From positions 124,001 through 188,000 of the forward strand of contig NZ_SMBP01000002.1 of NCBI RefSeq assembly GCF_004341945.1: a stretch of DNA of 64,000 bases, given 5' to 3'. The position numbers and the translations under genes were made by a program. Of the stretch, positions 8,786-25,068 are shown piece after piece. The DNA comes from Longicatena caecimuris (lineage in GTDB: Bacteria; Bacillota_I; Bacilli_A; Erysipelotrichales; Erysipelotrichaceae). Each line of letters starts with the position of its first letter. Position 1 is the stretch's first letter. The notes under the pieces were generated by a model. That model saw only the letters and a list, made by a program, of their open reading frames with translations, did not search any database and had not been told where the DNA came from.

Positions 8786-11498
8786 CTCATGTTCTCTCCT
8801 ATATAACTAGGATAATAAAACAAGAAATCGGCTGTTGTAATATCCAATTCGTGATACGTTGTTTCGCTTTCTTTTTCAAAAAAATGCTGATGAACCTCGA
8901 TGATTTTCGCCGTATTTACAAATAGAGTATCATCGCCATTATCAGTTACTTTGGTAGGAATGACAAAATGGAGCTCTTGCTCAGCCTGCAGCGCTTCAAT
9001 TGTAAAGATCAGCTTCTGTTTGTTTTTAGCATCTTGCATCACCTCTACAAATTGCGAATCTTTCACAAGTTGCTGTTTTGTGGAATCATTACCCAAATAC
9101 CACACAATAGCATCCAATTGGATATCCAATCCTGAAGGCAGGATATCCTCCACCTTAATAGCATTCAATAAGAAAGATGTTTCCCCATTTTTTACACTGA
9201 TATCATAGTTGATTTCATCATGCTTTTTCACCTTTGTCGGATGATCCTGAGTTCCGGAGACAGGTGTTGATGTTTTATGGATTTCCATTTCAGGTTCACG
9301 TATAGCCACCGTTGTTTCCGTTGTTTCTAATAAAGAATCTTGCCACTCAACATTGGAAACCTGTGTGTTTGCATTTACCCATGAGGTATTGTATGCCAAT
9401 ATCTTCTTTTCCATATCTTGCTTTATTATATCAATTGGTGCCTTCATATGAAGAATCGCAGAGACTTGTTGCTGTGATTCTAATACAAATGGAGTTCCTT
9501 CTACGGTATTACGCATATCAATAGCAACTGCTGTAACTTTTGACATATATCCGCTGGTTTTTCTGCACTCCATATTGTCTCATCTTCAATATTGGCATCC
9601 CCTTTTAAACCGGCATCATCATGAGATAATATGATATCTTTTTTCATGGAATATAAAACCTTAGCATCCACACCTTTACGAAGCGCCGATGACACATCAA
9701 CACTTTGTAAAGTTCCTTTCCAATGTTCTCTTTCTCCAGCATTATTTTCCAAAACATCAAATAAAACTAAATTATTAGCTTTCGCTGTATCTTGTGAAGA
9801 ATACTGTAAACGATAACTATAGCTATCGCCCGTTAATACTTCTGTGGAAGCTGTATATTTCAATTCCTGTTGGTTTTTCACAGACTTAAAGAACCCTAAT
9901 TTTGAAAATGTATCCCCTGTAAGACTCGTCGAAACAGAAGCATACAAAGTATCTTTCTGAGCACTTTCCCCCGCTTTTCCATCTTCGTCGATATCAATGA
10001 ACCATTTTTGATCAGAAAATGATGCATCCGGCATATCCGGATAGCCATTTGTTATACTTTCATTACCAGATTTGTAGGCAATACTATTGCTTATATTTCT
10101 TCCAAAATCAAAACAAGATTCCCAAGGATAATACCCATGATATTGTAACAGAAAACCACTTTCCTATTCCCAGCCATTAGGTTGAATATTTGTATATTTT
10201 ATACTATTTTTTTCACCTGGTTTCATACTTACCTGAATGATCATCATGGTTCTTCCGGAGTTCTTCCAATTTTCTTTTAATTGTACCGTAAAATCACATG
10301 GTCTATCTGGTAAAAAAGTAGTACCACCCTGTCGATATACAGTAGTCACTTTAATCTTTCCTACATCTACATACATTCCTTTTGGTAATAAATCATAAAA
10401 CGTTCCTGACTTTTGTTCTTTGAGCGTTCCATTATCTGATGTTTCATCAAAGGGATCGGCATAATTTGAATATGCTGCCTCATATGCATAGCTCTGATAC
10501 TCAATATCGTATTGTTGATTTTTTGTATCATTTGTCGTTTTAACTATTTCTTTCTGCATATTGCTGGTTGTTGGATAACCTTCTAAAAGAACCCAAGCTT
10601 TGCTATGATTTCCTAACGCACCTTCCATACCATATTCTGCTTTATCTCTTTCTATCATCTGTTCTTTTATTTTTTCAGAGCCTTCAATGGTAAGGGTATT
10701 TTTCTGGTTTACCCATTTCCCATTACTATCAAATATTCTGCCCGAATTTATGTTATAGAGCATAATCGAATCTTTTCCCTCAATCAGACTAGCAACATGG
10801 GCGGTTTTTCTTAATTGAATGCGAATATCTAAATTCAATTTGTTTTTAAAATACTTTGATTCGTGTTCTAATTTCAATGCAATAATCCCTGCTGGCAATT
10901 TTACTGTATTATTTCTATCAATGTTTTCAAATACTTTACCATCGTTATCTATAAAATTAAATATTTTATTGCCAACACATACAAACTTTCCTAATTTTAT
11001 CCATTCACCATCAAAGCTTTTTCTACCATATAGATCAGCAGGTTCCCAATTCCCATATTCCGTATTTTCATTAAATAGATAGCCTCCTATATCCTCATTC
11101 GCCGTCATATCAAACTCATTGATAACCACATGCACAGCGCTAAATACATAATCGTTCTCTTGCAGTCGCTCATCCTCTAATGTAACAAAATCATCTACTA
11201 ATTCGGTTTTATAGCTCTTTTTCCCATAACTATCCAAAACATTGTCAGGCAATCCATCGCCTTTGGTATAAATACCTCCATCCGTTGTCATTTCATTCGC
11301 CCAATGCCCCTGTAATTCAGGTAATTCATCATTTATATGAGCTTGTTCCATTAAATTGAAGAAACCCGGTGCGTTGCCGCCCCAACATATATAATTATGA
11401 AATCCCTTATTAATCCAACTGTTCCCTTCAGGGTATTTAAAGTTAAAATCTACATAACTGTAACTTGCATCAGCACTTTTTTCCTGATTTATGGATTA
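8782..11498 (-). pseudogene. Pilus adhesin / fimbrial isopeptide-domain protein, multiply disrupted
   Basis: Three stretches read as one ancestral surface protein. The frame open from 11495 (no start codon; YSYVDFNFKYPEGN resembles the mature start of such adhesins) ends at an in-frame TAG at 10164-10166. The same frame continues to a +2 shift at the ATATAT tract 9545-9550: removing AT joins EKPAD to MSKVTAVAID, a motif continuous in homologous adhesins. The last stretch (DILPSG, fimbrial D2-like) runs to 8782 and stops without LPxTG or anchor. So there is one nonsense codon, one frameshift, and missing ends. Frame joins are read from the sequence; homology is recognised by pattern. Confidence 0.7.
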
Positions 11499-11786: not shown

Positions 11787-11819
11787 AAAAAAAACGTCAT
11801 TCTCTTATGAGCCTGACGT
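11787..11819 (-). terminator. Terminator of the fatty acid operon
   Basis: Stem ACGTCA (11794-11799) / TGACGT (11814-11819) followed by a run of eight T on the minus strand. The stem overlaps the plsC stop codon. Confidence 0.75.
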
Positions 11820-12503
11820 AGCTTTCTTTTGCAATGCTTCCTGCATTTCTTTTTGCAGAATGGCACATAAACCATCTGCTTTCTCTTTACGGTATTCTTC
11901 ATATGTGCGTGCCTTTAGAAAAGTCACCTCAAAAGCAGTACCGTGCAGTAATACACGTTTAAAATCATAAGAATTCTTTAAGACCATTGGCACAATGGTT
12001 GCTTTTGCCATAAAAGCAGGCTGTAATGATCCGGCATGCAATTCTAACAACTGCCCATCTTTCGCTCTTGTTCCTTCAGGAAAAATTAATAGATTTCTTC
12101 CTTTTTTTAAGCGGCGTGCACTTTCTCTTAACATATGAATGGCACTGGATTGTTCCTCGCGATCAAAATAAATTAGCTCTAAGGTTTTTGCCCAATTGGC
12201 CACATAAGGTATTTTTTCATTTTCTTTCTTTGATATAAACGTAAATGGGGTCGTAATGATGGCAAGCTGTATCAACATATCAAATGCACTTTGGTGATTA
12301 GACACAAACAGAATCTCGCCTTCTTTAGGCATTTCTTCTGTTACATCAATTTGGATACGACAGCCAAAAGCTTTGATGATACGCTTTGACCAACTAGCCA
12401 TATGCTGATACCGCACTTCAAATGGTTTCTTTCGTACCAAAAAAGCATCCATCCAAGATGCCGGAAGTAGATACAACATACGTAAACAACCTACTATAAA
12501 CAT
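11805..12503 (-). CDS. plsC: 1-Acyl-sn-glycerol-3-phosphate acyltransferase
   Basis: Transfers an acyl chain to lysophosphatidic acid to make phosphatidic acid at the membrane. The acyltransferase motif NHQSAFD gives H70 and D75 (HX4D); the second motif FPEGTRAKDG follows near residue 140. Length of 232 residues is normal, with a hydrophobic N-terminus. It is the last gene of the operon, overlapping acpS by 10 nt, so acyl-chain production and phospholipid assembly are co-transcribed. Confidence 0.93.
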   Translation of the reverse strand: MFIVGCLRMLYLLPASWMDAFLVRKKPFEVRYQHMASWSKRIIKAFGCRIQIDVTEEMPKEGEILFVSNHQSAFDMLIQLAIITTPFTFISKKENEKIPYVANWAKTLELIYFDREEQSSAIHMLRESARRLKKGRNLLIFPEGTRAKDGQLLELHAGSLQPAFMAKATIVPMVLKNSYDFKRVLLHGTAFEVTFLKARTYEEYRKEKADGLCAILQKEMQEALQKKATSGS

Positions 12504-12853
12504 GAATCATCCATCTCCTTAGACTGTACGATTGCATATGCAATGGCATAGTCATGCTCATGTGCAATGGAAATCTGTATATCATATGTTTCCATTGTAC
12601 AATACGGTGCCCCATGGGCATCACTTAATATCTCGATATCACAAAGAGGAACATTGCAGTGCGCTGACAGTGCCTTATAAATCGCTTCCTTACCGGCAAA
12701 ACGTCCGGCTATCCATTCGGCCTTACGTTTTGACTGCATATGTGCACAGCATGCTTGTTCCTTCTGCGTTAATATTCTTTGCATATGTCCTTTTTCCATA
12801 GCATTTGCGACACGGTAAATATCCACAATGTCACATCCGATTCCTATTATCAT
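12494..12853 (-). CDS. acpS: Holo-[acyl-carrier-protein] synthase
   Basis: Moves 4'-phosphopantetheine from CoA onto the ACP serine. The 119-residue sequence has the AcpS motifs GIGCDIVDI at the N-terminus (metal-binding Asp) and RFAGKEAIYKAL in the middle (catalytic Glu and Lys). It overlaps birA by 4 nt (ATGA) and plsC by 10 nt. Its substrate ACP is the first gene of the same operon. Confidence 0.95.
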   Translation of the reverse strand: MIIGIGCDIVDIYRVANAMEKGHMQRILTQKEQACCAHMQSKRKAEWIAGRFAGKEAIYKALSAHCNVPLCDIEILSDAHGAPYCTMETYDIQISIAHEHDYAIAYAIVQSKEMDDSCL

Positions 12854-13521
12854 ATGATTGGCTCCTTATATATACTGGATAATGTGACTTCTCCTCCATG
12901 TAAGATGCGTCTTCCTTTCGCATTCCTAATTGTCAAAGTTCCATCACTGTTTACATCCTGTACTTCCCATACTACATCATCCAGCTTAATTTTTCTACCT
13001 TTTAACATATGATATTGACGATATCTTTCACACAGCTCTTCTTGGGAAAGTCTTGCTAAAGAGGTACACTGATGTAAAATGTCCGTTAGGAGAACTTCTT
13101 TATTTATATTAACATAACCGGCTTTTGCCTTTAAAGAGCCTTCCTTTTCCGACAGATTACATCCAATACCAACGATCATTGCGGCCTTTTGATTCCCTTC
13201 ATATACTGTTTCAATTAGAATCCCACATACCTTTTTCCCAGCCACCAAAATATCATTCGGCCATTTGATCAAAGCTGCCACATGAAAGCTTTCTAACGCT
13301 TTAACGATGGCCAATGGAAAAAGGATAGGAGAAGGGAAATGCTGTTTATAAAGGATGGAAAAGGTCAGATCCTCATTGCTTTCCCATGTTCGCTCAAAGC
13401 GCCCTCTTCCCTTAGTCTGATGTTCAGCTAGGATGACGCTTTGATCTGAGAGCATCGCATAATTATGCTTGCAAGTATCATTGGTACTGGCTAATTCAGA
13501 AAAGCGCTGTATGGTGTACAT
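12850..13521 (-). CDS. birA: Biotin-[acetyl-CoA-carboxylase] ligase, no DNA-binding domain
   Basis: Biotinylates the AccB lysine using ATP. It has the biotinyl-AMP loop motif KGRGRFERTW and the IKWPNDILV motif. At 223 residues it starts directly in the catalytic domain and lacks the winged-helix repressor domain of group II BirA, so it cannot repress biotin genes itself. It overlaps fabZ by one base (TAATG) and acpS by four. Its place here supplies the ligase for accB upstream; biotin itself probably comes through divergent bioY. Confidence 0.93.
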   Translation of the reverse strand: MYTIQRFSELASTNDTCKHNYAMLSDQSVILAEHQTKGRGRFERTWESNEDLTFSILYKQHFPSPILFPLAIVKALESFHVAALIKWPNDILVAGKKVCGILIETVYEGNQKAAMIVGIGCNLSEKEGSLKAKAGYVNINKEVLLTDILHQCTSLARLSQEELCERYRQYHMLKGRKIKLDDVVWEVQDVNSDGTLTIRNAKGRRILHGGEVTLSSIYKEPII

Positions 13522-13949
13522 TACGCCTCATCAATGGCAAACATCAGTTCTCCACTGACTGCAACTTCATCATCAACGGTTGCCACAGCATTCACAAAGA
13601 CGATTCCCATGCGCTCTTTCGTGACTTCACAGGTCAAGGTCAATTTGTCCCCGGGAATAACCTGACGTTTAAAGCGCGCTTTGTTGATACCGGCAAATAA
13701 ACCAATCTTTCCTTTATTCTCTTCCTTGCTTAACAACATCACCGCCACGGTTTGTGCTAAAGCCTCCAGCATCAGTACCCCGGGCATAATGTGCTTCTGG
13801 GGAAAGTGTCCTAGAAATTGCATCTCATTTGCGCTGATGCATTTACTTCCTACAACCTTATTTCCCTCAATGCTCTCAATGCGATCCACCAGTAGAAAAG
13901 GATAACGGTGGGGAATGATCTTTTGGATATCGTTGCTATTGTATAACAT
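13521..13949 (-). CDS. fabZ: 3-Hydroxyacyl-ACP dehydratase
   Basis: Hot-dog fold dehydratase of chain elongation. The signature IPHRYPFLLVDRI carries the catalytic His, and GHFPQKHIMPGVLMLEA carries the catalytic Glu. The ATG at 13949 (MLYNSND) has GGGAGG 7 nt upstream; a GTG 15 nt earlier overlaps that site and the fabF stop. It is the only dehydratase in the cluster and no FabM/FabN is present in the window, so the source of unsaturated chains cannot be told here. Confidence 0.95.
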   Translation of the reverse strand: MLYNSNDIQKIIPHRYPFLLVDRIESIEGNKVVGSKCISANEMQFLGHFPQKHIMPGVLMLEALAQTVAVMLLSKEENKGKIGLFAGINKARFKRQVIPGDKLTLTCEVTKERMGIVFVNAVATVDDEVAVSGELMFAIDEA

Positions 13950-13951
13950 AT

Positions 13952-15190
13952 TTATTCCTCCCACTTTTGAATGATAATGCTGGCATTATGACCGCCAAAT
14001 CCTAAGGAATTGGACATTGCCACATGCACAGGTGTATGCAGGCCTTCATTGACCACCAGATTCAAGTCACAAGCTTCATCCTTCTGCTGGTAATTGATCG
14101 TTGCCGGCACAAAGTCGTTTTGTACTGCTAATGTGGAAATAATAGCTTCCAAAGCACCGCTGGCACCTAATAAATGACCGCTCATCGATTTGGTGCTGGA
14201 TACATATGGCTTCATAGCATCCTTACCGAAAGCTTTTTTTACTGCCAGTGTTTCACTGGAATCATTTAGCGGTGTACTAGTACCATGGGCATTGATATAA
14301 TCAACATCTTGCATTTGCATAGCGGCATCTTTTACTGCCATTTGCATAGCTTTTGCGGCACTGCTGCCATCGGCCAATGGAGCCGTGATATGATTGGCAT
14401 CACAAGTACTTCCATATCCTACAATTTCGCCATAGATGTTTGCTTTACGGGCAAGGGCATGTTCCAATTCTTCTAAAATCAGCACACCGGCGCCTTCTCC
14501 CATAACAAAGCCTTTACGCTGCGCATCAAATGGGATGCTGGCACGCATTGGATCTTCCCCCTCGTGTAAGGCACGCATCGAGGCAAAGCCTGCCATGGCA
14601 ACCGGTGTAATACTAGCTTCACTTCCTCCGGCTGCGATGATATCTTCATAGCCATCACGAATACGATGGAAAGCTTCTCCGATAGCATTGGTACTTGCTG
14701 CACAAGCTGTTACCACACTGGAAACATTCCCTTTCGCTCCCAGATCAATTGCTACACTTCCCGGTGCCAGATTAATCAATGCCATAGGGATAAAATAAGG
14801 AGAAACGCGACTTGGTCCGCGATCTTTCAAAGTTGTGCTTGCACCTTCAATCGTTGCAATACCACCAATACCACTTCCTAGGATTACCCCAAAGGCATCG
14901 GCCTTGATCGTATCTTCAGACAAACCGCTGTCAGCATATGCCTGTTTCGCGGCAATACGCACAAACTGGGTAAAACGATCATTAAATTTCAATTCACGTT
15001 TTGTGAAATATTGTTCCATATCTAAATCTTTGACTTCACCTGCAAGTTTCGCACGAAACTCACTTGTATCAAAATGGGTAACCTTTCCAATGCCACAACG
15101 GCCTTCCTGCAAAGCATCCCATACTTCTTCTACGTTATTTCCAATTGGGCTTACAACACCCATTCCGGTTATGACAACTCTTCTTTTCAT
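13952..15190 (-). CDS. fabF: 3-Oxoacyl-ACP synthase II
   Basis: Condensing enzyme that elongates acyl-ACP with malonyl-ACP. The catalytic triad is visible: Cys163 in VTACAAS, His in NAHGTSTPLND, His in SGHLLGASGA. 412 residues, full length, ending GFGGHNASIIIQKW. The gene begins one base after the fabG stop and ends just before fabZ. Confidence 0.96.
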   Translation of the reverse strand: MKRRVVITGMGVVSPIGNNVEEVWDALQEGRCGIGKVTHFDTSEFRAKLAGEVKDLDMEQYFTKRELKFNDRFTQFVRIAAKQAYADSGLSEDTIKADAFGVILGSGIGGIATIEGASTTLKDRGPSRVSPYFIPMALINLAPGSVAIDLGAKGNVSSVVTACAASTNAIGEAFHRIRDGYEDIIAAGGSEASITPVAMAGFASMRALHEGEDPMRASIPFDAQRKGFVMGEGAGVLILEELEHALARKANIYGEIVGYGSTCDANHITAPLADGSSAAKAMQMAVKDAAMQMQDVDYINAHGTSTPLNDSSETLAVKKAFGKDAMKPYVSSTKSMSGHLLGASGALEAIISTLAVQNDFVPATINYQQKDEACDLNLVVNEGLHTPVHVAMSNSLGFGGHNASIIIQKWEE

Positions 15191-15922
15191 TTACATCACC
15201 ATCCCGCCATCAACTGCGATGACTTGTCCTGTTATATAATCACTATCTTCACTGCATAAAAACTTCACGACGTTGGCAACATCCTGCACACTGCCGAATT
15301 TTTTCATCGGTATATTGTTTTTAGCATTCGCCTGTACGTCTTCACTTAATGTATCGGTCATCGCTGTCTGGATAAAACCAGGGGCTACGGCATTGACATT
15401 AATGCCTCTAGGTGCCAGCTCTTTTGCTACCGCCTTGGTCATCGCAATGACTCCACCTTTACTAGCCGCATAATTGACTTGACCGATATTGCCGCATAAA
15501 CCGACAACACTTGCCATATTGACAATCTTGCCATGACGCTGTTTCATCATGATCCTTGCCACATGGCGGATACAGTTATACGTTCCTTTTAGATTAATGC
15601 GAATGACATCATCAAATTCTTCTTCACGCATTCTTAATAATAAATTATCTTTCGTGATGCCGGCATTATTCACAACGACATCCAGATGTCCATATTCTTT
15701 CACGATGGTATCCATCATTTCCTTAACATCCTGTTCATTGGCAACATCACATTGCATCATCTTATGTTTGCCGCTTGGATCAAGCTTGGCTAAGACTGCT
15801 TTTGCGCCTGCTTCACTGTTGGCATAATTGATGATGACATCGTATTCCTTTGATAAGGTGATAGCGATAGCTTCTCCGATACCGCGGGAAGCACCGCTGA
15901 TAAATGCTGTTTTTCTTTCCAT
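15191..15922 (-). CDS. fabG: 3-Oxoacyl-ACP reductase
   Basis: NADPH-dependent short-chain dehydrogenase/reductase for the first reduction step of elongation. Cofactor loop SGASRGIGEA at the N-terminus, NNAGITKDNLLLRM, catalytic Ser in NMASVVG and YxxxK in NYAASKGG. 243 residues is standard. It lies 4 nt after fabD and abuts fabF. Confidence 0.96.
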   Translation of the reverse strand: MERKTAFISGASRGIGEAIAITLSKEYDVIINYANSEAGAKAVLAKLDPSGKHKMMQCDVANEQDVKEMMDTIVKEYGHLDVVVNNAGITKDNLLLRMREEEFDDVIRINLKGTYNCIRHVARIMMKQRHGKIVNMASVVGLCGNIGQVNYAASKGGVIAMTKAVAKELAPRGINVNAVAPGFIQTAMTDTLSEDVQANAKNNIPMKKFGSVQDVANVVKFLCSEDSDYITGQVIAVDGGMVM

Positions 15923-15926
15923 ATGA

Positions 15927-16853
15927 CTATCCTTTCAATGCATTAAGGCATTCCTTCAAGCTTGCCTCATCTTCGACATGCAAGATTTTTACGTCATGCC
16001 CTTTGCAACATTTTTTCACAAAACCACTGACAGCTTTTCCCGGACCAACTTCAATAAAGGTATCTACACCATCTTCCAGCATATGTTCAATCGTCTGCGT
16101 AAAATAGACAGAATGTGCAATTTGTTTACTTAAGATTGTGTTCAGATCGGTCTTCTCTGGTTTTCCCGATATATTGTGATACACCGGAATGGATGGCTGT
16201 TTAATATTGTATTGTGCTAAGACCTTACGCAACTCTTTAGCCGCATCTAGTAATAAGGAAGAATGAAACGCCCCGCTGACCTGTAAAGGAATCACGCGTC
16301 TTGCTCCCAATTCTAAGCATCGCTTACTTGCTGCTTCAACGGCAGCTTTATGCCCGGTGATTACGATTTGTCCCGGACAATTATAATTGGCAATTTCACA
16401 TACGCCCAACGCCTTAACTTCTTCACAAGCCTGTAAGATTTTCGCTTCTTCTAACATCAGAATAGCCGCCATACTGCTGATTCCTGAAGGCAGTGCATTG
16501 GCCATGATCTTGCCTCGCTGAGCAACGATCTTCGTACCATCTTCAATTGAGAAAGCATTCGCATAACATAAGGCACTGTATTCTCCCAATGATAAGCCAG
16601 CGCACACATCTGCTTCAACGCCAAAAGAACGTAGCAGCGTTGCACAAGCCATGCTGTGCAAGAAGATTGCAGGCTGGGCATATTGTGTATCATCCAAAGT
16701 TTCCTTTGGACCTTCAAAACAAAGTTGTTTCACATCGAAATCTAAAGTACTGCTGTCAAAGATGGCTCTGACGATAGCGTAGTTGTCATATAAATCTTTT
16801 CCCATGCCGGGATGCTGAGCACCCTGACCAGAGAATAAAAAGGCTGTTTTCAT
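15927..16853 (-). CDS. fabD: Malonyl-CoA:ACP transacylase
   Basis: Loads malonyl groups onto ACP. GQGAQHPGMG forms the N-terminal loop; the active serine is in GLSLGEYSA and the His in SGAFHSSL. The ATG at 16853 (MKTAFLF) has AAGGAGG 6 nt upstream; the ATG 33 nt earlier has no ribosome site. About 308 residues, normal. An 84-nt gap separates it from the upstream gene with no obvious promoter. Confidence 0.95.
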   Translation of the reverse strand: MKTAFLFSGQGAQHPGMGKDLYDNYAIVRAIFDSSTLDFDVKQLCFEGPKETLDDTQYAQPAIFLHSMACATLLRSFGVEADVCAGLSLGEYSALCYANAFSIEDGTKIVAQRGKIMANALPSGISSMAAILMLEEAKILQACEEVKALGVCEIANYNCPGQIVITGHKAAVEAASKRCLELGARRVIPLQVSGAFHSSLLLDAAKELRKVLAQYNIKQPSIPVYHNISGKPEKTDLNTILSKQIAHSVYFTQTIEHMLEDGVDTFIEVGPGKAVSGFVKKCCKGHDVKILHVEDEASLKECLNALKG

Positions 16854-16937
16854 GAATGTCCTCCTTACGTATATGATGGCATGCATCTGCTTAGAATGCA
16901 GATGATACGCTCATAACTCATTCGTATATAAATGAAC

Positions 16938-18005
16938 CTAAATAAAAGCTGCTTTTAGTTCATCCATCAATTGTTTTACCGTGACGATTTCCGTAATACG
17001 CCACGCATTGGCTCCTGCAAATACTAAGCCCTGTTCTACCTCACCATGTACGGCATGAATCAATGCCTCACTGATACAATATGGCGTTGTTGCCGGTTTA
17101 CATGGCAACATACAGCCAATACAATGGGATGGTGCTATGCGCTTTTCTTTTACCTGACGCATAAAATCCGTCATCACCGCTCTTCCCGGTAATCCAGCAG
17201 GACTTTTCACCAGTTCGATATCTTCCTTTTGGGCTTGCACAATCGCTTCTTTAAAAGCAGGCGATGCATCACATTCCTGTGTGGCGATAAAACGCGTGCC
17301 CATTTGTACACCGGCAGCTCCTAAATCACAAAAGTGACGGATATCTTGCGCATCATAAATGCCCCCTGCTACAAAAATTGGTACCTGTCGCTGATAGCGT
17401 TCTTCAAATTCAGGAAGAAGGGCTTTTACATCGGCTAAGATTTTTTCTAAAGGCTCTGCCTTATTTGTGATAAGATCTTCTTTCTTAAAGCCCAAATGAC
17501 CTCCTGCTAAAGAACCTTCAATGACGATAAAATCAGGCAGGCGATGATGATGGCGATCCCAGGTCTTCAAAATCAGCTTTGCCGCTCTGCCACTGGATAC
17601 GATTGGTGCTAGTAAAATATCCGCATCCTTAACAATGGCTGGCAAATGCATTGGCAGCCCTGCTCCGGAAATAATGGCATCCGCTTGAGCATTAACGGCA
17701 GCTTTCACATAAAACTCATAATCTTTACTTGCCACCATGATATTTACACCACATAAGCCCTTTCCCTGTGCCCATTCTTTTGCCTTTGCAATTTCTTCAT
17801 GCATTGCCTGAATATTACAGATCATGCTGTTTTCCCAGAAATCCGGTTTCTGATATCCCGGGTGTGCTGCACTGATTACCCCCATGCCGCCTTCCTTCAT
17901 CACAGCACCGGCTAAGGAAGATAGTGAAATACCAACTCCCATACCACCTTGTATCACAGGTACTTCTAAGCTTTTTCCATTATGGAAAAGAATCCTATTC
18001 TGCAT
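16938..18005 (-). CDS. Nitronate monooxygenase / FabK-like flavoprotein
   Basis: 355-residue FMN-binding TIM-barrel protein of the 2-nitropropane dioxygenase superfamily: VIQGGMGVGIS at the N-terminus, ISGAGLP, IEGSLAGGHLG and VAGGIYDAQDI phosphate-binding loops, and AAGVQMGTRF. A C-terminal cysteine group, CIGCMLPC then PYC, is absent from the neighbouring FabK and could bind a metal or cluster. It overlaps fabK by 11 nt, so it belongs to the fatty acid operon, but its substrate is unknown: nitronate detoxification or a second enoyl reductase are both possible. Confidence 0.8.
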   Translation of the reverse strand: MQNRILFHNGKSLEVPVIQGGMGVGISLSSLAGAVMKEGGMGVISAAHPGYQKPDFWENSMICNIQAMHEEIAKAKEWAQGKGLCGVNIMVASKDYEFYVKAAVNAQADAIISGAGLPMHLPAIVKDADILLAPIVSSGRAAKLILKTWDRHHHRLPDFIVIEGSLAGGHLGFKKEDLITNKAEPLEKILADVKALLPEFEERYQRQVPIFVAGGIYDAQDIRHFCDLGAAGVQMGTRFIATQECDASPAFKEAIVQAQKEDIELVKSPAGLPGRAVMTDFMRQVKEKRIAPSHCIGCMLPCKPATTPYCISEALIHAVHGEVEQGLVFAGANAWRITEIVTVKQLMDELKAAFI

Positions 18006-18948
18006 AAATTAATCCCTTTACTTTTTCGTTTAATGTAATGATTTCTTCCTGACTTTCCTGGATCAAGGAAGCGAAAATGTCTTTGAGTGGACGAATTTCC
18101 TTACACATACCGGCAACCTGTCCCATCATGACAGAACCATGCTTCACATCACCATCAAATACGGCTTTTCGCAAACCGCCTAAGGTCAGTTTTTCCAATT
18201 CTTCCTTTGGCGCATTTTCATGTTCCAACTTCAGATATTGGATTGCCATCTGGTTTTTCAAGATACGTACCGGTGCCCCCGCATTACGCCCGGTCACGAC
18301 ACTATCCAGATCCTTTGCCCGCAGCACCGCTTTTTTATAATTTTCATGAATTGGACATTCTTCACTCACCAATAAACAGGTACCTACCTGTACGCCGACT
18401 GCCCCTAAGCTTAGCGCTGCATTCAATTGTTTCCCACTGGCAATACCACCAGCTGCAATTACTGGAATAGATACAGCATTTACGACCTGTGGTACTAATG
18501 ACATTGTCGTGGTTTCACCAACATGACCACCACTTTCGCCACCTTCTGCGATCAGTCCATCAACACCGCTTTTTGCTAAACGGCGTGCTAAAGCCACACT
18601 GGCAACAACAGGAAAGACTTTACAGCCACTTGCTTTTAATCCTTCGATATAAGGTCCGGGATTTCCCGCACCGGTTGTCACAACAGCAACCTTTTCTTCA
18701 ATGATCACCTGCATGATTGCCTCCGTATGCGGATTCATCAGCATTACATTGACCCCAAAGGGTTGCTTTGTCAATTGTTTGCATTTTTTGATAGCAGCTC
18801 TTGTCTGCACCTCATCCATCGCACCGGTGGCAATGATGCCTAAACCACCGCAATTGGATACCGCAGCCGCAAATTCTGCTGTCGCGATATTGGCCATCGC
18901 TCCTTGAAAGATCGGATAGCGAATACCTAAGAGTTCATTGATTAACAT
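17995..18948 (-). CDS. fabK: Enoyl-ACP reductase II (FMN)
   Basis: Flavin enoyl-ACP reductase that ends each elongation cycle and replaces FabI. FabK hallmarks: YPIFQGAMANIA, TTGAGNPGPYI, EGGESGGHVGE, IPVIAAGGIASG and GAVGVQVGT. The ATG at 18948 (MLINELLG) has AAGGAG 7 nt upstream, giving about 317 residues; the ATG 36 nt earlier lacks a site. Enzymes of this type are resistant to triclosan in streptococci. No fabI is in the window. Confidence 0.93.
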   Translation of the reverse strand: MLINELLGIRYPIFQGAMANIATAEFAAAVSNCGGLGIIATGAMDEVQTRAAIKKCKQLTKQPFGVNVMLMNPHTEAIMQVIIEEKVAVVTTGAGNPGPYIEGLKASGCKVFPVVASVALARRLAKSGVDGLIAEGGESGGHVGETTTMSLVPQVVNAVSIPVIAAGGIASGKQLNAALSLGAVGVQVGTCLLVSEECPIHENYKKAVLRAKDLDSVVTGRNAGAPVRILKNQMAIQYLKLEHENAPKEELEKLTLGGLRKAVFDGDVKHGSVMMGQVAGMCKEIRPLKDIFASLIQESQEEIITLNEKVKGLIYAE

Positions 18949-18996
18949 GATTGTTCTCCTTTTGTTCCTGATACATCGTATCATTGCGAACCTTTT

Positions 18997-19971
18997 CTAT
19001 AACTCGATATAAGCTCCGGCCCAAGTAAAACCTGCACCAAAGCCACTTAATACTAATTTCATCCCTTCTTTTAACAGACCTTTTTCCTTCATTTCCCCAA
19101 GGGCTAAAGGAATGCTGGCTGCAGATGTATTCCCATACTCCGCAATATTCATATAAACATGAGCCATATCAATATGACAGCGACGACACACATTCGCAAT
19201 AATACGCGAATTGGCCTGATGAGGAATGATCCAATCGATTTCCTCCATCTTAACACCAGCCTGTTGCAATACAGCTTCCATGCTTTCTTGCATAGCCTTT
19301 ACGGCAAAGCGAAAGGTTTCACTGCCATTCATGCGGACAAGGGATGGCGTATATATCTGTTTTTCAAATAACTTACGAGGAAGTGGAGCATCACTGTGAA
19401 TAATGCCTTGCTCATCCCCCATGCTGCGCGCATAGTGAAACATTCGACAAGCTGTATCTTCCTGCTTTAAGACCATGGCTCCTGCCCCATCCGCAAAGAT
19501 AATACAAGTAGCGCGATCTTCCCAATCCAATTGTTTACTGATAACCTCTGCACCAATGATCAAAGCACATTTTGCCTGATTCATCGCTAATAAGCTGTGT
19601 GCCGTCTGTAAGGCATAGAGAAAGCCAGAACATGCTGCATTAATATCAAACGCCATGACCGCCTGCTCCTTCATCCCAAGTTTGGATTGAATCAGACAAG
19701 CAGTGCTTGGTGTCGTTTTATCCGGCGTAAAGGTCGCCGTAATAATCAGATCAATCTCTTTCGGATCTATTTGCGCATCCTGCAAGGCCATTTTCGCGGC
19801 TCTCACACCTAAATCACTCGTATTTTCATCCTCTGAAATATAGCGGCTTTCAATACCTGTACGTGTCTGTATCCATTCATGATTTGTATCAACATAAGTT
19901 GATAGCTCATCATTGGTTACCTTCCGTTTGGCTTTGGCATAGCCAAGCCCTTTTACTTTACATCCCTTCAT
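18997..19971 (-). CDS. fabH: 3-Oxoacyl-ACP synthase III
   Basis: Starts chain synthesis by condensing acetyl-CoA (or branched primers) with malonyl-ACP. Triad: Cys114 in NAACSGFLYA, His in IIPHQANSRI, Asn in YGNTSAAS. The ATG at 19971 (MKGCKVKG) gives 324 residues, the usual length, and lies inside the end of accA (14-nt overlap). GTG 20010 and ATG 20001 would add residues not found in family members. Start choice is moderately sure. Confidence 0.92.
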   Translation of the reverse strand: MKGCKVKGLGYAKAKRKVTNDELSTYVDTNHEWIQTRTGIESRYISEDENTSDLGVRAAKMALQDAQIDPKEIDLIITATFTPDKTTPSTACLIQSKLGMKEQAVMAFDINAACSGFLYALQTAHSLLAMNQAKCALIIGAEVISKQLDWEDRATCIIFADGAGAMVLKQEDTACRMFHYARSMGDEQGIIHSDAPLPRKLFEKQIYTPSLVRMNGSETFRFAVKAMQESMEAVLQQAGVKMEEIDWIIPHQANSRIIANVCRRCHIDMAHVYMNIAEYGNTSAASIPLALGEMKEKGLLKEGMKLVLSGFGAGFTWAGAYIEL

Positions 19972-20893
19972 AGGATTGTCCCATCCTTCTGAATTTCTCA
20001 TATCGTTCACTTAACAGTGTTTTTTCTTTCTTTTTCATTAAACGCTCCAACTGTTTCAGCAATTCTTCATCCAATTGGGCAATAACATAATCTAAATCAT
20101 GATGAGCACCGCCCAAAGGTTCTTTGATGATCGTATCGATTACACCCTTACGTTTTAAATCCTGTGCTCGTAATTCCATAACTTTGGCTGCCTCTGCTGC
20201 CCGCTTTTCATCTTTCCACAAAATGCTGGCAAACCCTTCCGGAGATAGTACCGAATAAATCGCATGTTCCAACATCATGATCTGATCTGCAACACTGAAA
20301 GCCAAAGCACCACCACTGCCTCCTTCACTTAAGACAACGGCAATAACGGGAGTTTTCAGATCGGCAAATACTTGCAAACATTGCGCAATAGCTTCTGCCT
20401 GTCCGCGTTCTTCCGCTCCTTTTCCCGGATAAGCACCACTGGTATCTACCAGCGTAATGATCGGGCGATGAAATTTTTCGGCCTGTTTTGCCAGACGCAA
20501 GGCCTTACGATACCCTTCCGGCTGCAGCATTCCAAAATTACGCTTCATATTTTCTTCCAGCGTTTTTCCCTTGCTTTGTGCCAAGACCGTTACCGGAATC
20601 CCATGAAAACTTGCCAAGCCCCCTTGACAGGCACCATCATCCCCATAGAAACGATCGCCATGCAATTCCATAAAATCATCAAACAGCCTGGCGATATAAT
20701 CACTCGCTTTGGGGCGTTTGGGATGTCTAGCCAGATATACACTATCCCAGGCATCCATATGGGTATACGCCGTTTGGCGTATTTCTTCTATTTGTTTTAC
20801 AATCGCCTCTTTTTGCAAGATATCCTCGCTTTCTAAGGATGCTAAAGAGGCTTCTAAAGAGGCAATCTTTGCCTCACTTTCTCTTAATCCCAT
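19958..20893 (-). CDS. accA: Acetyl-CoA carboxylase carboxyltransferase, alpha subunit
   Basis: With AccD, transfers CO2 from carboxybiotin to acetyl-CoA. It has an N-terminal helical segment, HPKRPKASDYI, ELHGDRFYGDDGA, and the glycine-rich oxyanion region SEGGSGGALAF. 311 residues, full length. It overlaps accD by 10 nt and fabH by 14 nt, favouring balanced subunit synthesis. Confidence 0.95.
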   Translation of the reverse strand: MGLRESEAKIASLEASLASLESEDILQKEAIVKQIEEIRQTAYTHMDAWDSVYLARHPKRPKASDYIARLFDDFMELHGDRFYGDDGACQGGLASFHGIPVTVLAQSKGKTLEENMKRNFGMLQPEGYRKALRLAKQAEKFHRPIITLVDTSGAYPGKGAEERGQAEAIAQCLQVFADLKTPVIAVVLSEGGSGGALAFSVADQIMMLEHAIYSVLSPEGFASILWKDEKRAAEAAKVMELRAQDLKRKGVIDTIIKEPLGGAHHDLDYVIAQLDEELLKQLERLMKKKEKTLLSERYEKFRRMGQSYEGM

Positions 20894-21759
20894 GAAACTC
20901 TCCTTTCATGAAGACGCAGCAGTTGGATCAACACATTGCGTGAATCTTTGCGTTCCACGATACGGTCAATAAAACCTTTTTCCAACACAAATTCAGCCGT
21001 TTGGAAATCAGCTGGCAGCTCTTCATTAACAGTCGAGGCAATAACCCGCTTTCCAGCAAATCCAATCAGACATTTCGGTTCTGCCAAAATAATATCTCCC
21101 AGCATCGCAAAGCTGGCAGATACACCACCGGTGGTAGGATGCGTCAGATAGCTGATGTACAATAACCCTGCCTCATGATGTTTAGCAAGCGCTGCACTTG
21201 TCTTTGCCATTTGTACAAGAGATAAAATACCTTCTTGCATACGCGCTCCTCCACTTGTACAAAAAATGATAAGTGGCAGTTTTTTCTTCGTCGCATATTC
21301 GATACACCGGGTAATCTTTTCTCCGACGATCTGCCCCATGCTGCCCATAAAGAAATTGCTGTCCATAATAGCTAGTGCGCATTTGATACCACCTAATTTT
21401 GCCGTACCGGTAACCACTGCTTCATATAAACCAGTCTTTTTTTGTAAACGCTCCAACTTTTCCTCATACCCAGGGAATGTTCTTCCCTCAAGTAACGTCA
21501 TACGTTTATCCATTTCCACAAAGCTACCCTCATCGACGATCTGCCGTATGCGTTCATGCGCAGTTAGTTTTAAATGTGCTCCACAATGCGGACAAACATA
21601 TAAATTATGCATTAGATCCTCAAATGGAATGCTTTCTTTGCATTCGCTGCAACTGCGAAAAAGATTCTCAGGAACATCAATCGGCTGTTTCTGATCACTG
21701 CTGCGACGGCTTTTGAATAAATCCAAGCGCATCTTGCGTGTTTTAAATAATTGTTCCAT
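20884..21759 (-). CDS. accD: Acetyl-CoA carboxylase carboxyltransferase, beta subunit
   Basis: Partner of AccA. An N-terminal zinc ribbon is visible as CSEC (about 36-39) and CPHC (about 57-60). The crotonase-like domain carries FCTSGGARMQEG and HPTTGGVSASFA. 291 residues, normal. It overlaps accC by 17 nt at its start and accA by 10 nt at its end. Confidence 0.95.
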   Translation of the reverse strand: MEQLFKTRKMRLDLFKSRRSSDQKQPIDVPENLFRSCSECKESIPFEDLMHNLYVCPHCGAHLKLTAHERIRQIVDEGSFVEMDKRMTLLEGRTFPGYEEKLERLQKKTGLYEAVVTGTAKLGGIKCALAIMDSNFFMGSMGQIVGEKITRCIEYATKKKLPLIIFCTSGGARMQEGILSLVQMAKTSAALAKHHEAGLLYISYLTHPTTGGVSASFAMLGDIILAEPKCLIGFAGKRVIASTVNEELPADFQTAEFVLEKGFIDRIVERKDSRNVLIQLLRLHERRVSWD

Positions 21760-23110
21760 CCTCTTTCAGCTCCTTTATGAATGTTTCCATAAAACCGGTA
21801 TCATACTTGCCGCTGACAAATGTCGGATGATGCAGCAACAGATACTGAAATTCAATATTAGTTTCGACTCCTTCAATGATCAATTCTTCCAAGGCAATGC
21901 GCATACGTTTGATACATTCTAAACGAGTTGGCGCAAAGGTAATGATCTTGGCAATCATGGAATCATAAAACGGAGGAATTTGATAACCGTTGTAGACGGC
22001 ACTTTCCACACGTACATTGCGTCCTTGGGGAAAGTTGATAAATTTGATAGTTCCAGGACTAGGCGCAAAATTCATTTTAATATTTTCCGCATTGATGCGG
22101 CATTCGATGGCATGTCCAAGACAAGGAATATCCTCTTGTTTGATATGCAGTTTTTGATGCTCGGCAATGCGAATTTGCATTTTGATAAGATCAATTCCCG
22201 TGATTTCCTCGGAGATGGTATGTTCCACCTGAATACGGGTATTCATTTCCATAAAATAATACTGCCCACGTGCATCTAATAAAAACTCTATCGTTCCTAC
22301 ACTATCATAGCCAACTGCTTTGCAGGCATTGACAGCGTCCTGTAATAAATGATTTCGTGTGTTCGCATCCAGTGTATGACATTGTGCTTCTTCCAATAGC
22401 TTTTGATTGCGCCGCTGGCAAGAACAGTCACGTTCATATAAATGCAAAACATTGCCAAAATGATCACCCATCAGCTGTACTTCAACATGTTTGGGCTCAA
22501 CGATGAATTTTTCCATATACACCGCATCATCCCCAAAGCAGACCTTTGCCTCAGCTCTTGCCGTTTCATAGGCATCCATGACCTCTTCTGCACAATCGGC
22601 TCTGCGCATACCACGACCACCGCCGCCATTCGCTGCCTTGATCAATACCGGATAACCGATGGATTCTGCCATAGCTAACGCATCTTCCTTGGTTTTCAAG
22701 ATATCCTTACTGCCGGGAATCACTGGTACACCGGCCTTTATCATTACTTGACGGGCATGATTTTTATCTCCCATCTTATCAATGATATCCGGACTAGGAC
22801 CGATAAAGATTAGACCACATTGCTGAACCAAACGGGCAAACTTGGCATTTTCACTCAAAAAACCAAAGCCGGGATGAATGGCATCACAGCCCGTCATGCA
22901 TGCTGCACTTAAGATATTTTTCATATTTAAATAGCTGTCAGCGCTTTTTGCTTTCCCGATACAGACAGCATAATCTGCCAGCTGCACATGCAATGCTTCT
23001 TTATCCGCTGTTGAATACACCGCAACCGTTTCAATGTTCATCTCTTTACATGTACGAATAATGCGAACAGCAATTTCGCCACGGTTGGCAATTAATATTC
23101 TGCGAATCAT
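21743..23110 (-). CDS. accC: Acetyl-CoA carboxylase biotin carboxylase subunit
   Basis: ATP-grasp enzyme that carboxylates biotin on AccB. IANRGEIAVRIIRT at the N-terminus, the glycine-rich ATP loop AANGGGGRGMR, the EKFIVEPKHVEVQ stretch, catalytic region MNTRIQVEH. 455 residues, full length. It overlaps accB by 4 nt (ATGA). Confidence 0.96.
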   Translation of the reverse strand: MIRRILIANRGEIAVRIIRTCKEMNIETVAVYSTADKEALHVQLADYAVCIGKAKSADSYLNMKNILSAACMTGCDAIHPGFGFLSENAKFARLVQQCGLIFIGPSPDIIDKMGDKNHARQVMIKAGVPVIPGSKDILKTKEDALAMAESIGYPVLIKAANGGGGRGMRRADCAEEVMDAYETARAEAKVCFGDDAVYMEKFIVEPKHVEVQLMGDHFGNVLHLYERDCSCQRRNQKLLEEAQCHTLDANTRNHLLQDAVNACKAVGYDSVGTIEFLLDARGQYYFMEMNTRIQVEHTISEEITGIDLIKMQIRIAEHQKLHIKQEDIPCLGHAIECRINAENIKMNFAPSPGTIKFINFPQGRNVRVESAVYNGYQIPPFYDSMIAKIITFAPTRLECIKRMRIALEELIIEGVETNIEFQYLLLHHPTFVSGKYDTGFMETFIKELKEDGTII

Positions 23111-23556
23111 GCGGCCTCTCCAATACGAATCAGCTCTTGATCAAATTCCACCATAGACTCATTCGTAACTAAGATTTCCGCAATGACACCATCGATTGGC
23201 GAATGAATTTCATTCATTACTTTCATCGCCTCAATAATACAAAGAACATCGCCTTTTTTCACCTTCTGACCGATTTCCACAAATGGCGTACTGCCAGCTG
23301 CGCGACTGCTGTAAAATGTTCCAACAATCGGTGCTTTCACCCAATAACCTGCCTTTTTTTCTTCTTGTACAGCTGTTTGCACAGGTGCTTCCTTAGGCTG
23401 TGGAGCTAAGGGAAGCGTCGTAGTTGGCGCATAGGTTACTTCTTTTCCTGTCGGCTTTTCCATTTTTATTTTCATATCATCTGCTTCAAGTTCCATTTTT
23501 GCTAATTGGGAATCTTCAAAGATCTTGATGATTTCTTTTATCGTTTCTGTGTTCAT
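23107..23556 (-). CDS. accB: Biotin carboxyl carrier protein
   Basis: Carries biotin between AccC and AccDA. The biotinyl lysine is K112 in IIEAMKVMNEI. The N-terminal 40 residues are the helical assembly region, followed by a Pro/Ala/Gln-rich linker (about 44-65) and the lipoyl-like domain. 149 residues. It is separated from acpP by a 55-nt gap holding a terminator-like hairpin. Confidence 0.96.
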   Translation of the reverse strand: MNTETIKEIIKIFEDSQLAKMELEADDMKIKMEKPTGKEVTYAPTTTLPLAPQPKEAPVQTAVQEEKKAGYWVKAPIVGTFYSSRAAGSTPFVEIGQKVKKGDVLCIIEAMKVMNEIHSPIDGVIAEILVTNESMVEFDQELIRIGEAA

Positions 23557-23581
23557 GCTTTACCTCCCATGAATAGATTTT

Positions 23582-23606
23582 AAAAAAGCCAAGTCATCTT
23601 GGCTTT
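23582..23606 (-). terminator. Internal terminator between acpP and accB
   Basis: Perfect stem AAGCCAAG (23586-23593) / CTTGGCTT (23598-23605) with a 4-nt loop and a T-run on the minus strand, 5 nt after the acpP stop. Within an operon this should act as a partial terminator, making acpP transcript more abundant than the downstream enzyme genes. Confidence 0.75.
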
Positions 23607-23611
23607 GCGTT

Positions 23612-23836
23612 TTATTGCTTGCTTTCCAGTAATTTAACGATATCAGCAACACTTACCAATTTCGCAAGCTCTTCATCCTCAATGCGGACATCAAATTCTG
23701 TTTCCAGCTCTAAGGAAAGCTCTACTGCTGCTAAAGAATCAATACCTAAATCATCTTTCAGGTTTGCTTCCATAGTAATCATATCTTCATCGACGTTAAT
23801 TGCTTCTACTAATACTTCTTTTACTTTTTCAAACAT
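23612..23836 (-). CDS. acpP: Acyl carrier protein
   Basis: 74-residue acidic helical protein that carries growing acyl chains. The phosphopantetheine site is Ser34 in LGIDSLAAVEL. AGGAGG lies 8 nt upstream of the ATG. First gene of the operon, directly behind the regulated promoter and ahead of an internal terminator, consistent with high expression. Confidence 0.96.
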   Translation of the reverse strand: MFEKVKEVLVEAINVDEDMITMEANLKDDLGIDSLAAVELSLELETEFDVRIEDEELAKLVSVADIVKLLESKQ

Positions 23837-23894
23837 ATTTTGTTCCTCCTGGTTACTCTGTAACTGCTAAAAGATTAACACTCCTAGTTTTAAT

Positions 23895-23942
23895 TGTCAA
23901 TAGTTTTAGTATTAAAAACTAGATAACATTTCAACTAGGAGG
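23895..23942 (-). promoter_or_regulatory. Leader of acpP: possible second promoter and inverted repeats
   Basis: A perfect TTGACA on the minus strand (23900-23895) has no convincing -10. Around it, CTCCTAGTT (23881-23889) and AACTAGGAG (23933-23941) form a 9-bp inverted repeat, with an inner pair TAGTTTT / AAAACTA (23901-23921). These could fold in the leader RNA of the upstream promoter. Function is unknown. Confidence 0.35.
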
Positions 23943-23979
23943 TTAATAGTGTTTTTGTTGTCGAGGTGAATTCCAATAT

Positions 23980-24040
23980 TTTGAAATTCAAACGTATTTT
24001 AATACTTTGATATTCAAAAGTAAATAGTTTGATGGTCAAA
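23980..24040. promoter_or_regulatory. Three FabT-like operators upstream of acpP
   Basis: Three 13-bp sites share TTTGA-N3-TCAAA: TTTGAAATTCAAA (23980-23992, a perfect palindrome), TTTGATATTCAAA (24006-24018) and TTTGATGGTCAAA (24028-24040). They resemble the box bound by the streptococcal MarR-family regulator FabT. They sit at the start site, in the spacer and upstream of the -35 of the promoter. No MarR gene is in the window, so the regulator must lie elsewhere. Confidence 0.7.
23996..24024 (-). promoter_or_regulatory. Main promoter of the fatty acid operon
   Basis: On the minus strand TTTACT (24024-24019), a 17-nt spacer, TAAAAT (24001-23996). The spacer contains one operator palindrome, and two more flank the promoter on either side, the layout of a repressed promoter. 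Confidence 0.6.
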
Positions 24041-24338
24041 TTTTAATTTTCACATAGTTTCACATAATTAGTAATGCTATCTTTTTCTCTCATTTCCCTT
24101 GAAAATAGGCTGTTTTTAACACCTAGGTTCGCAGAAATCGTCTTCCTTTTTCCTCATATAGCTTAATCGTACCACCAGTAAGCGTACGATGATTCATAAT
24201 ATTTCATATCATTTTTCAACGAACCATCTTCAAGTTTTCTTTTTCTTTTACACTTTCATTTTCCCTTTTCCAAATAAAAAATATGTAATATCTTCTCTCT
24301 TTCATATAGTTTATGAAATTATCAATAAAGTAAAAAAG

Positions 24339-24368
24339 TTTGACAATCAAAATAAGTCGCAGTATACT
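24339..24368 (+). promoter_or_regulatory. bioY promoter with overlapping FabT-like operator
   Basis: TTGACA (24340-24345), a 17-nt spacer, TATACT (24363-24368). The operator TTTGACAATCAAA (24339-24351) covers the -35 box and has the same TTTGA-N3-TCAAA form as the three sites before acpP. Confidence 0.75.
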
Positions 24369-24395
24369 CTCTTTCGTGAACAGGAGGATTTACAA

Positions 24396-24953
24396 ATGAA
24401 AACAAAACAATTAACACTATGTGCCTTTTTTACGATCTTATATATACTGGGTTCTCGTATTACAATTCCCACTGGAATCATACCTTTGACCCTTCAAACG
24501 ATGATGGTGATTATCGCCGGTATTCTCTTACGTCCAAAAGAAATTTTAGCCTCTTATGGTGTTTACTTTCTGATGGGATTTGTCGGATTACCTGTTTTTG
24601 CCAGCGGTGGTGGTCTCAGTTATGTCTTACAGCCATCTTTTGGTTTCCTATTATCTTTCCCTTTTGCGGCTTGTCTGATTTCAGCTCTTCGTCATAAATA
24701 TGAGCTTACACATTTTTATCAGCTATATCCACTTTGCTTATGTGCGTTATGCTTTATTTATCTAATAGGTTGTGGCTATATGTATCTGATTTTTAACTAT
24801 TATATGGGAAGTGCTAAAGATATTTCCAGTATCATTGCCATTGGAGCTGCACCTTTTGTTATCAGTGATTCCATTAGCATGGCCGTTGGTTGTTTCTGTG
24901 CCATTCGTTTATCCATGGTATCTTCCATTAAACGTATTCTAATCTGTGAATAA
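24396..24953 (+). CDS. bioY: Biotin transporter substrate-binding subunit
   Basis: S-component of an ECF biotin importer, 185 residues with about six membrane segments and the BioY pattern TIPTGIIPLTLQTM followed by GLPVFASGGG. The ATG at 24396 has AGGAGG 7 nt upstream and lies about 28 nt from the -10; the frame stays open upstream but that part precedes the promoter. It imports the biotin needed by AccB. It is divergent from the fatty acid operon and shares its operator type. No biotin synthesis genes are in view. Confidence 0.92.
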   Translation: MKTKQLTLCAFFTILYILGSRITIPTGIIPLTLQTMMVIIAGILLRPKEILASYGVYFLMGFVGLPVFASGGGLSYVLQPSFGFLLSFPFAACLISALRHKYELTHFYQLYPLCLCALCFIYLIGCGYMYLIFNYYMGSAKDISSIIAIGAAPFVISDSISMAVGCFCAIRLSMVSSIKRILICE

Positions 24954-25068
24954 GACTGTTTTTGAATGATCAAAACCTTTCTAATAGAACAAAATATCTT
25001 ATTTTAGAAAATTATCATTCGAATAATTCCTTCCTTCATAGTACAATATAGAGTATTGGAGGACGTAT

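Follow-up and report, generated by a model that had tools for sequence, protein, structure and literature searches.

Predicted FabT-type operators at the biotin importer gene bioY of Longicatena caecimuris and several relatives apparently replace biotin-sensing control where the biotin ligase is without a DNA-binding part

Introduction

In its textbook form, biotin regulation in bacteria is a feedback by biotinyl-AMP through BirA. The locus described here lies in 64 kb of DNA from Longicatena caecimuris (the whole stretch analysed, further referred to as the window) and raises the question of what controls the import and ligation of biotin when the ligase gene stands in a fatty acid synthesis operon and the importer gene, bioY, carries an operator of the same type as that operon. 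An earlier note on this DNA had suggested that a FabT-like lipid sensor, and not BirA, controls both biotin supply and ligation. This suggestion is supported, at the level of predicted regulation, by the presence of a FabT homologue in the genome, by the HTH-less sole ligase, by the absence of a BirA-like box and by bioY sites conserved in relatives. With considerable confidence, we propose that a FabT-family repressor acts on the bioY and acpP promoters via TTTGA-N3-TCAAA, BirA being solely an enzyme. The state of the membrane, and not biotin, appears to be what the importer and the ligase respond to.

Data and methods

The family scan covered 116 genomes of Erysipelotrichaceae and gave 40 BioY matches in 35 genomes. 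The ligase class, group I (HTH-less) or group II, was set for 33 of these 35 genomes, and all assignments were checked by Pfam. Two genomes were left out. In G050 the ligase gene is truncated at a contig edge, and the bioY of this genome has a BirA-like box with one mismatch; in G111 no ligase was matched. If a genome encoded several proteins of the ligase family, the class was taken from the best match.

The BirA-like box was initially defined as TTGTTAAC with N13-17 and was widened to TTGTWWAC with N14-17 after the first hits. Boxes with one mismatch or none were accepted if they lay in the 1500 bases upstream of bioY, a distance that takes in birA-bioY operons.

The class-level table contains 86 BioY genes, 85 from outside the family and one from G002. 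Six weak, partial or contig-edge rows, all from outside the family, are omitted from it (the second copies in G274 and G259, as well as G448, G455, G339 and G265). At this level a genome was considered FabT-positive given a FabT match with E of 1e-15 or better.

Results and discussion

Operators and promoters between acpP and bioY

The divergent genes acpP and bioY are separated by an intergenic region of 559 bp with 71% A+T (Table 1). The earlier note had listed four TTTGA-N3-TCAAA sites (that is, TTTGANNNTCAAA) within 370 bp of DNA, three around the acpP promoter and one on the −35 box of bioY; all four proved exact at the positions it gave, and the promoter coordinates bear out their placement. 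No further exact TTTGANNNTCAAA match occurs elsewhere in the window. Among 20,000 dinucleotide shuffles of the region, 19,878 contained no site and 122 contained one, whereas more than one was never seen. With one mismatch allowed, nine sites were found in the window versus a chance mean of 8.17; as this count is not above chance, such sites were dropped as evidence, and significance in the window belongs to the exact cluster only. The earlier note had also advised a search for further sites, and the whole genome (2,945,084 bases) yielded 15 exact ones versus two for the reversed control pattern. The acpP–bioY region holds four of the 15, and five of the remaining 11 fall within reading frames and are chance-like.

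Table 1. Features of the acpP–bioY locus, in window coordinates
Feature	Position	Strand	Basis
acpS, plsC, last operon genes	11805..12853	-	Pfam
birA, HTH-less (group I) biotin protein ligase, 223 aa, within operon	12850..13521	-	TIGR00121 over cut-off; Pfam
fabH, two fabK-like, fabD, fabG, fabF, fabZ	13521..19986	-	FabH, FabK models tested; rest by eye
accB, accC, accD, accA	19958..23556	-	translations, by eye; accB above BCCP model cut-off
acpP, acyl carrier protein, first fab operon gene	23612..23836	-	translation, named by eye
proximal acpP promoter, TTGACA (−35 23900-23895), 17 bp, TAATCT	23872..23900	-	sequence; conserved in G005
predicted FabT-type operator 3, just downstream of −10 (distal acpP)	23980..23992		exact; identical in G005
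distal acpP promoter, TTTACT (24024-24019), 17 bp, TAAAAT (24001-23996)	23996..24024	-	sequence; TTTACT, 17 bp, TATAAT in G005
predicted FabT-type operator 2, in −35/−10 spacer of distal acpP promoter	24006..24018		exact; identical in G005
predicted FabT-type operator 1, acpP array	24028..24040		exact match; G005 one-mismatch counterpart, same spacing
predicted FabT-type operator TTTGACAATCAAA over bioY −35	24339..24351		exact match; bioY promoters of relatives
bioY promoter, TTGACA (24340-24345), 17 bp, TATACT (24363-24368)	24340..24368	+	sequence; spacing recurs in relatives
bioY, biotin ECF transporter S component, 185 aa	24396..24953	+	Pfam BioY E 2.3e-31

The acpP array frames the distal promoter, with one site just upstream of its −35 box, one in the spacer and one just 3' of the −10 box; in the relative G005 the spacing of the array is identical, two of the sites are identical and one has a mismatch. 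The promoter at bioY is a good one, with about 28 bases between the −10 box and the ATG. We aligned eight bioY promoters, in all of which the site overlaps the −35 box and a −10-like hexamer follows at a matching distance; these promoters were picked for having a site and prove little alone. In other site-bearing bioY promoters, e.g. those of G087 and G037, the −10 box is less clear.

No site within one mismatch lies at the proximal acpP promoter, and for this reason the operon may be only partly controlled by FabT. The FabT repression described in the literature is also weak, 2- to 5-fold (PMC13046290). An imperfect inverted repeat, CTAGTTTTAAT...ATTAAAAACTAG (23884-23922), spans the proximal promoter and is kept only partly in G005; it is possibly the site of a second regulator.

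The fab operon and the biotin ligase

Downstream of acpP the genes follow in the order accB, accC, accD, accA, fabH, two fabK-like genes, fabD, fabG, fabF, fabZ, birA, acpS and plsC, overlapping or separated by short gaps. We infer that the run from acpP to plsC is one transcript. Since birA lies in the same tight run as acpP and the fab genes, it would share the promoter with the FabT-type sites.

As the earlier note had said, the ligase is without a repressor domain: Pfam finds the BPL domain only, starting at residue 10 of the 223, and no HTH_11. It is the single match to the biotin ligase family in the genome, as BioY is the single match to its own model. The window contains no exact BirA-like box, and none with at most one mismatch occurs within 1500 bases upstream of its bioY, where the best match has three mismatches. 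Biotin control of bioY through BirA is unlikely, because the sole ligase is without the repressor domain and the box is not found upstream of bioY.

Biotin could still reach bioY by another route, if FabT shared the promoter with a biotin-responsive factor other than BirA. Such regulators are known, namely BioR and BioQ (PMC4554459, PMC6593275). Nevertheless, no second conserved element is visible by eye in the aligned bioY promoters, and no Rfam element, riboswitch or other, reaches the gathering threshold in 23500-25000, on which ground a riboswitch in this interval was rejected. We consider such double control rather unlikely and return to FabT as the predicted regulator of bioY.

The FabT homologue

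The absence of a FabT homologue would have spoken against the earlier note; one is present on contig C3 (G000:C3:46146-46580, G000 being the genome of the window). It is one of 16 matches to MarR models in the genome, and its best family is NCBIfam FabT with 123.8 bits (E 6e-36, next family 51.7), a score below the strict cut-off of 200, as are all FabT matches in the 391 genomes of the class. Among solved structures the best match is PDB 6jbx (E 3.5e-25), which is named as a fatty acid biosynthesis transcriptional regulator. On the FabT model, three proteins out of the 15 remaining MarR matches gave 41.9 bits, 31.5 bits and no match.

In the window genome fabT is located not within the fab operon but on contig C3 behind the genes for IF-3 and L20 (rplT) (G000:C3:44945-46584; L112:4946-6584). 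Given this position, the level of FabT may follow the growth rate. No site within one mismatch was found upstream of the IF-3–L20–fabT run in L112. In Enterococcus faecalis and streptococci fabT is inside the fab operon (PMC13046290), a location that is typical of the FabT regulon and not defining. Among seven relatives for which the acpP/accB promoter was read, fabT stands beside the array and acpP/accB in four (G024, G037, G051 and G106), and in G024 fabT, the array and bioY with its own site are all neighbours. In the other three it is on a different contig (G015), about 16 kb away (G100) or not found (G005).

G005 has sites at bioY, acpP and degV and no recognizable fabT, the best match having 27% identity. 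The assembly is one contig rated 99% complete. The same genome gives no match to ribosomal protein L20, which is expected in every bacterium. Because the L20 gene precedes fabT in the window genome, a gap in the G005 sequence is the likely, if not proved, cause of the absence.

Sites upstream of bioY in relatives

An exact site is found upstream of nine of the 40 BioY genes of the family, in nine genomes, at −53 to −82 from the match start. In G073 the site, at −60, has one mismatch; this genome is left out of the nine, but the ligase tree labels it as a site genome. Some genomes have two BioY genes: in G037, G063 and G083 one of the two has the site, and in G001 and G077 neither has.

At class level, 10 of the 86 BioY genes have an exact site, and all ten are in FabT-positive genomes (10/57 versus 0/29, p 0.014), which leaves 47 of the 57 genes in such genomes without one. 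Sites in G351 and G380 overlie the start of the coding region and were rejected; after their removal the ratio is 8/55 versus 0/29 (p 0.046), the eight still including the site of G256, which has no clear promoter. Gene order differs among the genomes: it is fabT, bioY, site, acpP in G430, and birA, bioY and fabT are consecutive in G122 and G143, where bioY has no exact site. In Parvimonas micra (L289:9980-14589) bioY directly precedes three sites, two exact and one near-site, in front of acpP-accBCDA; the neighbourhood of bioY and fab genes hence reaches beyond Bacilli.

These data bear on whether the sites are bound by FabT or by another regulator, MarR-type or unrelated. The genome offers 16 MarR-model matches to choose from, and G005 keeps its sites without a recognizable fabT. 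On the other hand, fabT adjoins the array in four of the seven relatives read, and the site agrees with the palindrome described for FabT of pneumococcus (PMC8406281). At class level, every genome outside the family with a bioY site is FabT-positive, and in G005, where L20 is unmatched as well, fabT may simply be missing. Recognition by a regulator other than FabT is therefore quite improbable in our estimate, and the sites are further treated as predicted FabT operators.

Ligase class and operator type

The two ligase groups of the family differ clearly in domain structure. HTH_11 is present in 12 of 12 group II ligases, in which the ligase match is preceded by 83 to 113 residues, and in 0 of 21 group I ligases. 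In each of the ten site genomes (including G073) a single protein matches the ligase family, the match starting after 8 to 28 residues.

The operator upstream of bioY follows this division (Fisher tests, which ignore relatedness). An exact FabT site is found in 9/21 group I versus 0/12 group II genomes (p 0.012) or, among FabT-positive genomes only, in 8/14 versus 0/10 (p 0.006). The BirA-like box shows the reverse distribution, 0/21 in group I versus 8/12 in group II. Both operator types together occur in none of the 33 genomes. Two group I genomes have the bioY upstream region cut, G060 and G112 (the latter with a short ligase and other ligase-family matches); without them the counts are 9/19 versus 0/12 for the FabT site (p 0.005) and 0/19 versus 8/12 for the box. 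When genomes are merged into units of genus and ligase class, FabT sites are found in 7/16 versus 0/7 units (p 0.057) and the box in 0/16 versus 4/7 (p 0.004, a value that is partly after the fact because the box pattern was widened after the first hits had been seen).

The same counts bear on the possibility that the bioY site is a chance match aided by the promoter and that the acpP sites act alone. TTTGACA contains the −35 hexamer, and half of the palindrome is thus expected at strong promoters. Strong promoters alone would not explain, however, why the site is absent from all 12 group II genomes, nor why in a separate named collection of 80 BioY loci (mostly Clostridia and other phyla) exact upstream sites occur in just two, both from Erysipelotrichaceae already counted. 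We regard a chance origin as very improbable indeed, and the bioY site as a probable operator in its own right.

FabT sites apparently replace the usual biotin-sensing control where the ligase is without its DNA-binding part. Both states are found within one genus (g52). In G087 (MTC7, name inferred) the ligase is of group I and bioY has a FabT site at −82, whereas in G100 (Breznakia pachnodae, name inferred) the ligase has HTH_11 and bioY a BirA-like box; two FabT sites are present in G100 at acpP, about 2 kb from bioY. On the ligase tree (32 rows) the site genomes need three label changes by parsimony, and the well-supported branches force one. The pattern suggests that one operator was exchanged for the other, perhaps not just once. 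We think it somewhat probable that the bioY operator was repeatedly exchanged in Erysipelotrichaceae: upon loss of the DNA-binding domain from the ligase, the BirA box would vanish and FabT would take over bioY, import then following lipid demand and not the vitamin.

The exchange is not universal. An exact FabT site is missing from 12 of the 21 group I genomes, and under the limits applied both operator types are missing from four of the 12 group II genomes (G001, G055, G066 and G104). The ligase of G077 is very like that of the group II genome G001 but short, and G077 has neither a FabT site nor a box. These close ligases come from one genus (G077, L100; G001, L348), one without and one with the HTH. 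A recent domain loss and a broken or misread start are both possible for G077.

Proposed mechanism and relation to known systems

In the model that we favour, FabT, encoded elsewhere behind rplT, would bind TTTGA-N3-TCAAA as dimer sites at both promoters. The three sites over the distal acpP promoter would control the acp-acc-fab-birA-acpS-plsC operon, and the one over the bioY −35 box the biotin importer. With abundant long-chain acyl-ACP, FabT would bind, and the fatty acid enzymes, the biotin ligase and biotin import would all be lowered; biotin supply would thereby be matched to the demand of acetyl-CoA carboxylase, with BirA of the window genome acting as an enzyme only. FabT binding, repression and the acyl-ACP ligand are inferred here by analogy with streptococci and enterococci. 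Acyl-ACP is the published ligand of FabT (PMC13046290, PMC9083066).

The predicted system resembles the FabT regulon of streptococci, enterococci and lactococci in its MarR-family repressor, in the core of the palindrome and in the control of acc and fab genes. A further likeness is seen in pneumococcus, where both bioY and a DegV gene, SPD_0646, rise in the fabT mutant (log2 fold changes of 2.25 and 1.49, respectively; PMC8406281). It differs in that fabT of the window genome is outside the operon behind rplT, a three-site array covers one promoter, a separate exact operator lies on the −35 box of bioY, and birA is inside the operon. Control by BirA as described in Streptococcus suis and Lactococcus lactis, where BirA binds bioY in vitro (PMC4877710, PMC4861984), shares the target and a dedicated operator at the importer; in the window, however, the ligase is without the DNA-binding domain, the BirA-like box is absent and the operator is of the FabT type. 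A third comparison is with FapR. Its family and operator differ from those of FabT. Like FabT, it is a global regulator of lipid synthesis (PMC5052256).

The rise of bioY in the pneumococcal fabT mutant was already known (PMC8406281). It could be indirect, because bioY is also lowered, together with fabM and fakB3, in the mutant of a different pneumococcal regulator (PMC12647141). RegPrecise is credited with three FabT and one BirA target operons in pneumococcus, which are not named (PMC13055309). A 4.5-fold decrease of bioY with arachidonic acid has been described (PMC5958418), and in Streptococcus mitis bioY falls with serum, where the authors suggest that a mechanism not yet known is at work (PMC10269507). 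The mechanism proposed here would explain the fall of bioY with fatty acids or serum in streptococci.

Within the partial coverage of the open-licence literature, we found no statement of a FabT operator at bioY or of its exchange with a BirA operator. What appears to be new is a predicted FabT regulon that, through a dedicated operator and instead of BirA, also includes biotin import, along with the pattern relating ligase class to operator type. If the exchange is true, the vitamin no longer governs its own import, which depends on lipid demand instead. The family would offer a testable case of a cofactor gene changing its regulator when the old one loses the DNA-binding domain, and the ligase sequence suggests which relatives sense biotin at bioY.

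Other candidate sites and neighbouring genes

Two further exact sites of the genome are located at promoter-like sequences. One (L012:1501-1513; G000:C21:34500-34512) lies over the −35 box of a DegV (FakB-like) gene. The site is found at the same place in G005 only, that is, at 2 of the 30 DegV loci read out of 54 matches in 11 genomes; the DegV link is narrow. The other (L011:1501-1513; G000:C9:74502-74514) is on a promoter-like TTGACA-18-TATGAT between patatin-like phospholipase and ndk-like genes, both named by eye.

Within the window, the adjacent FabK-like genes (16938-18984) score 421.5 and 114.9 bits on the FabK model, and two FabK-like genes are also present in the fab operons of G005, G015, G051 and G106. 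Two sortases (Pfam) stand beside surface-protein genes at 5860-11351 in what looks by eye like a pilus cluster, and an EF-G-like GTPase with a C-terminal YacP-like NYN domain is encoded at 105-2699.
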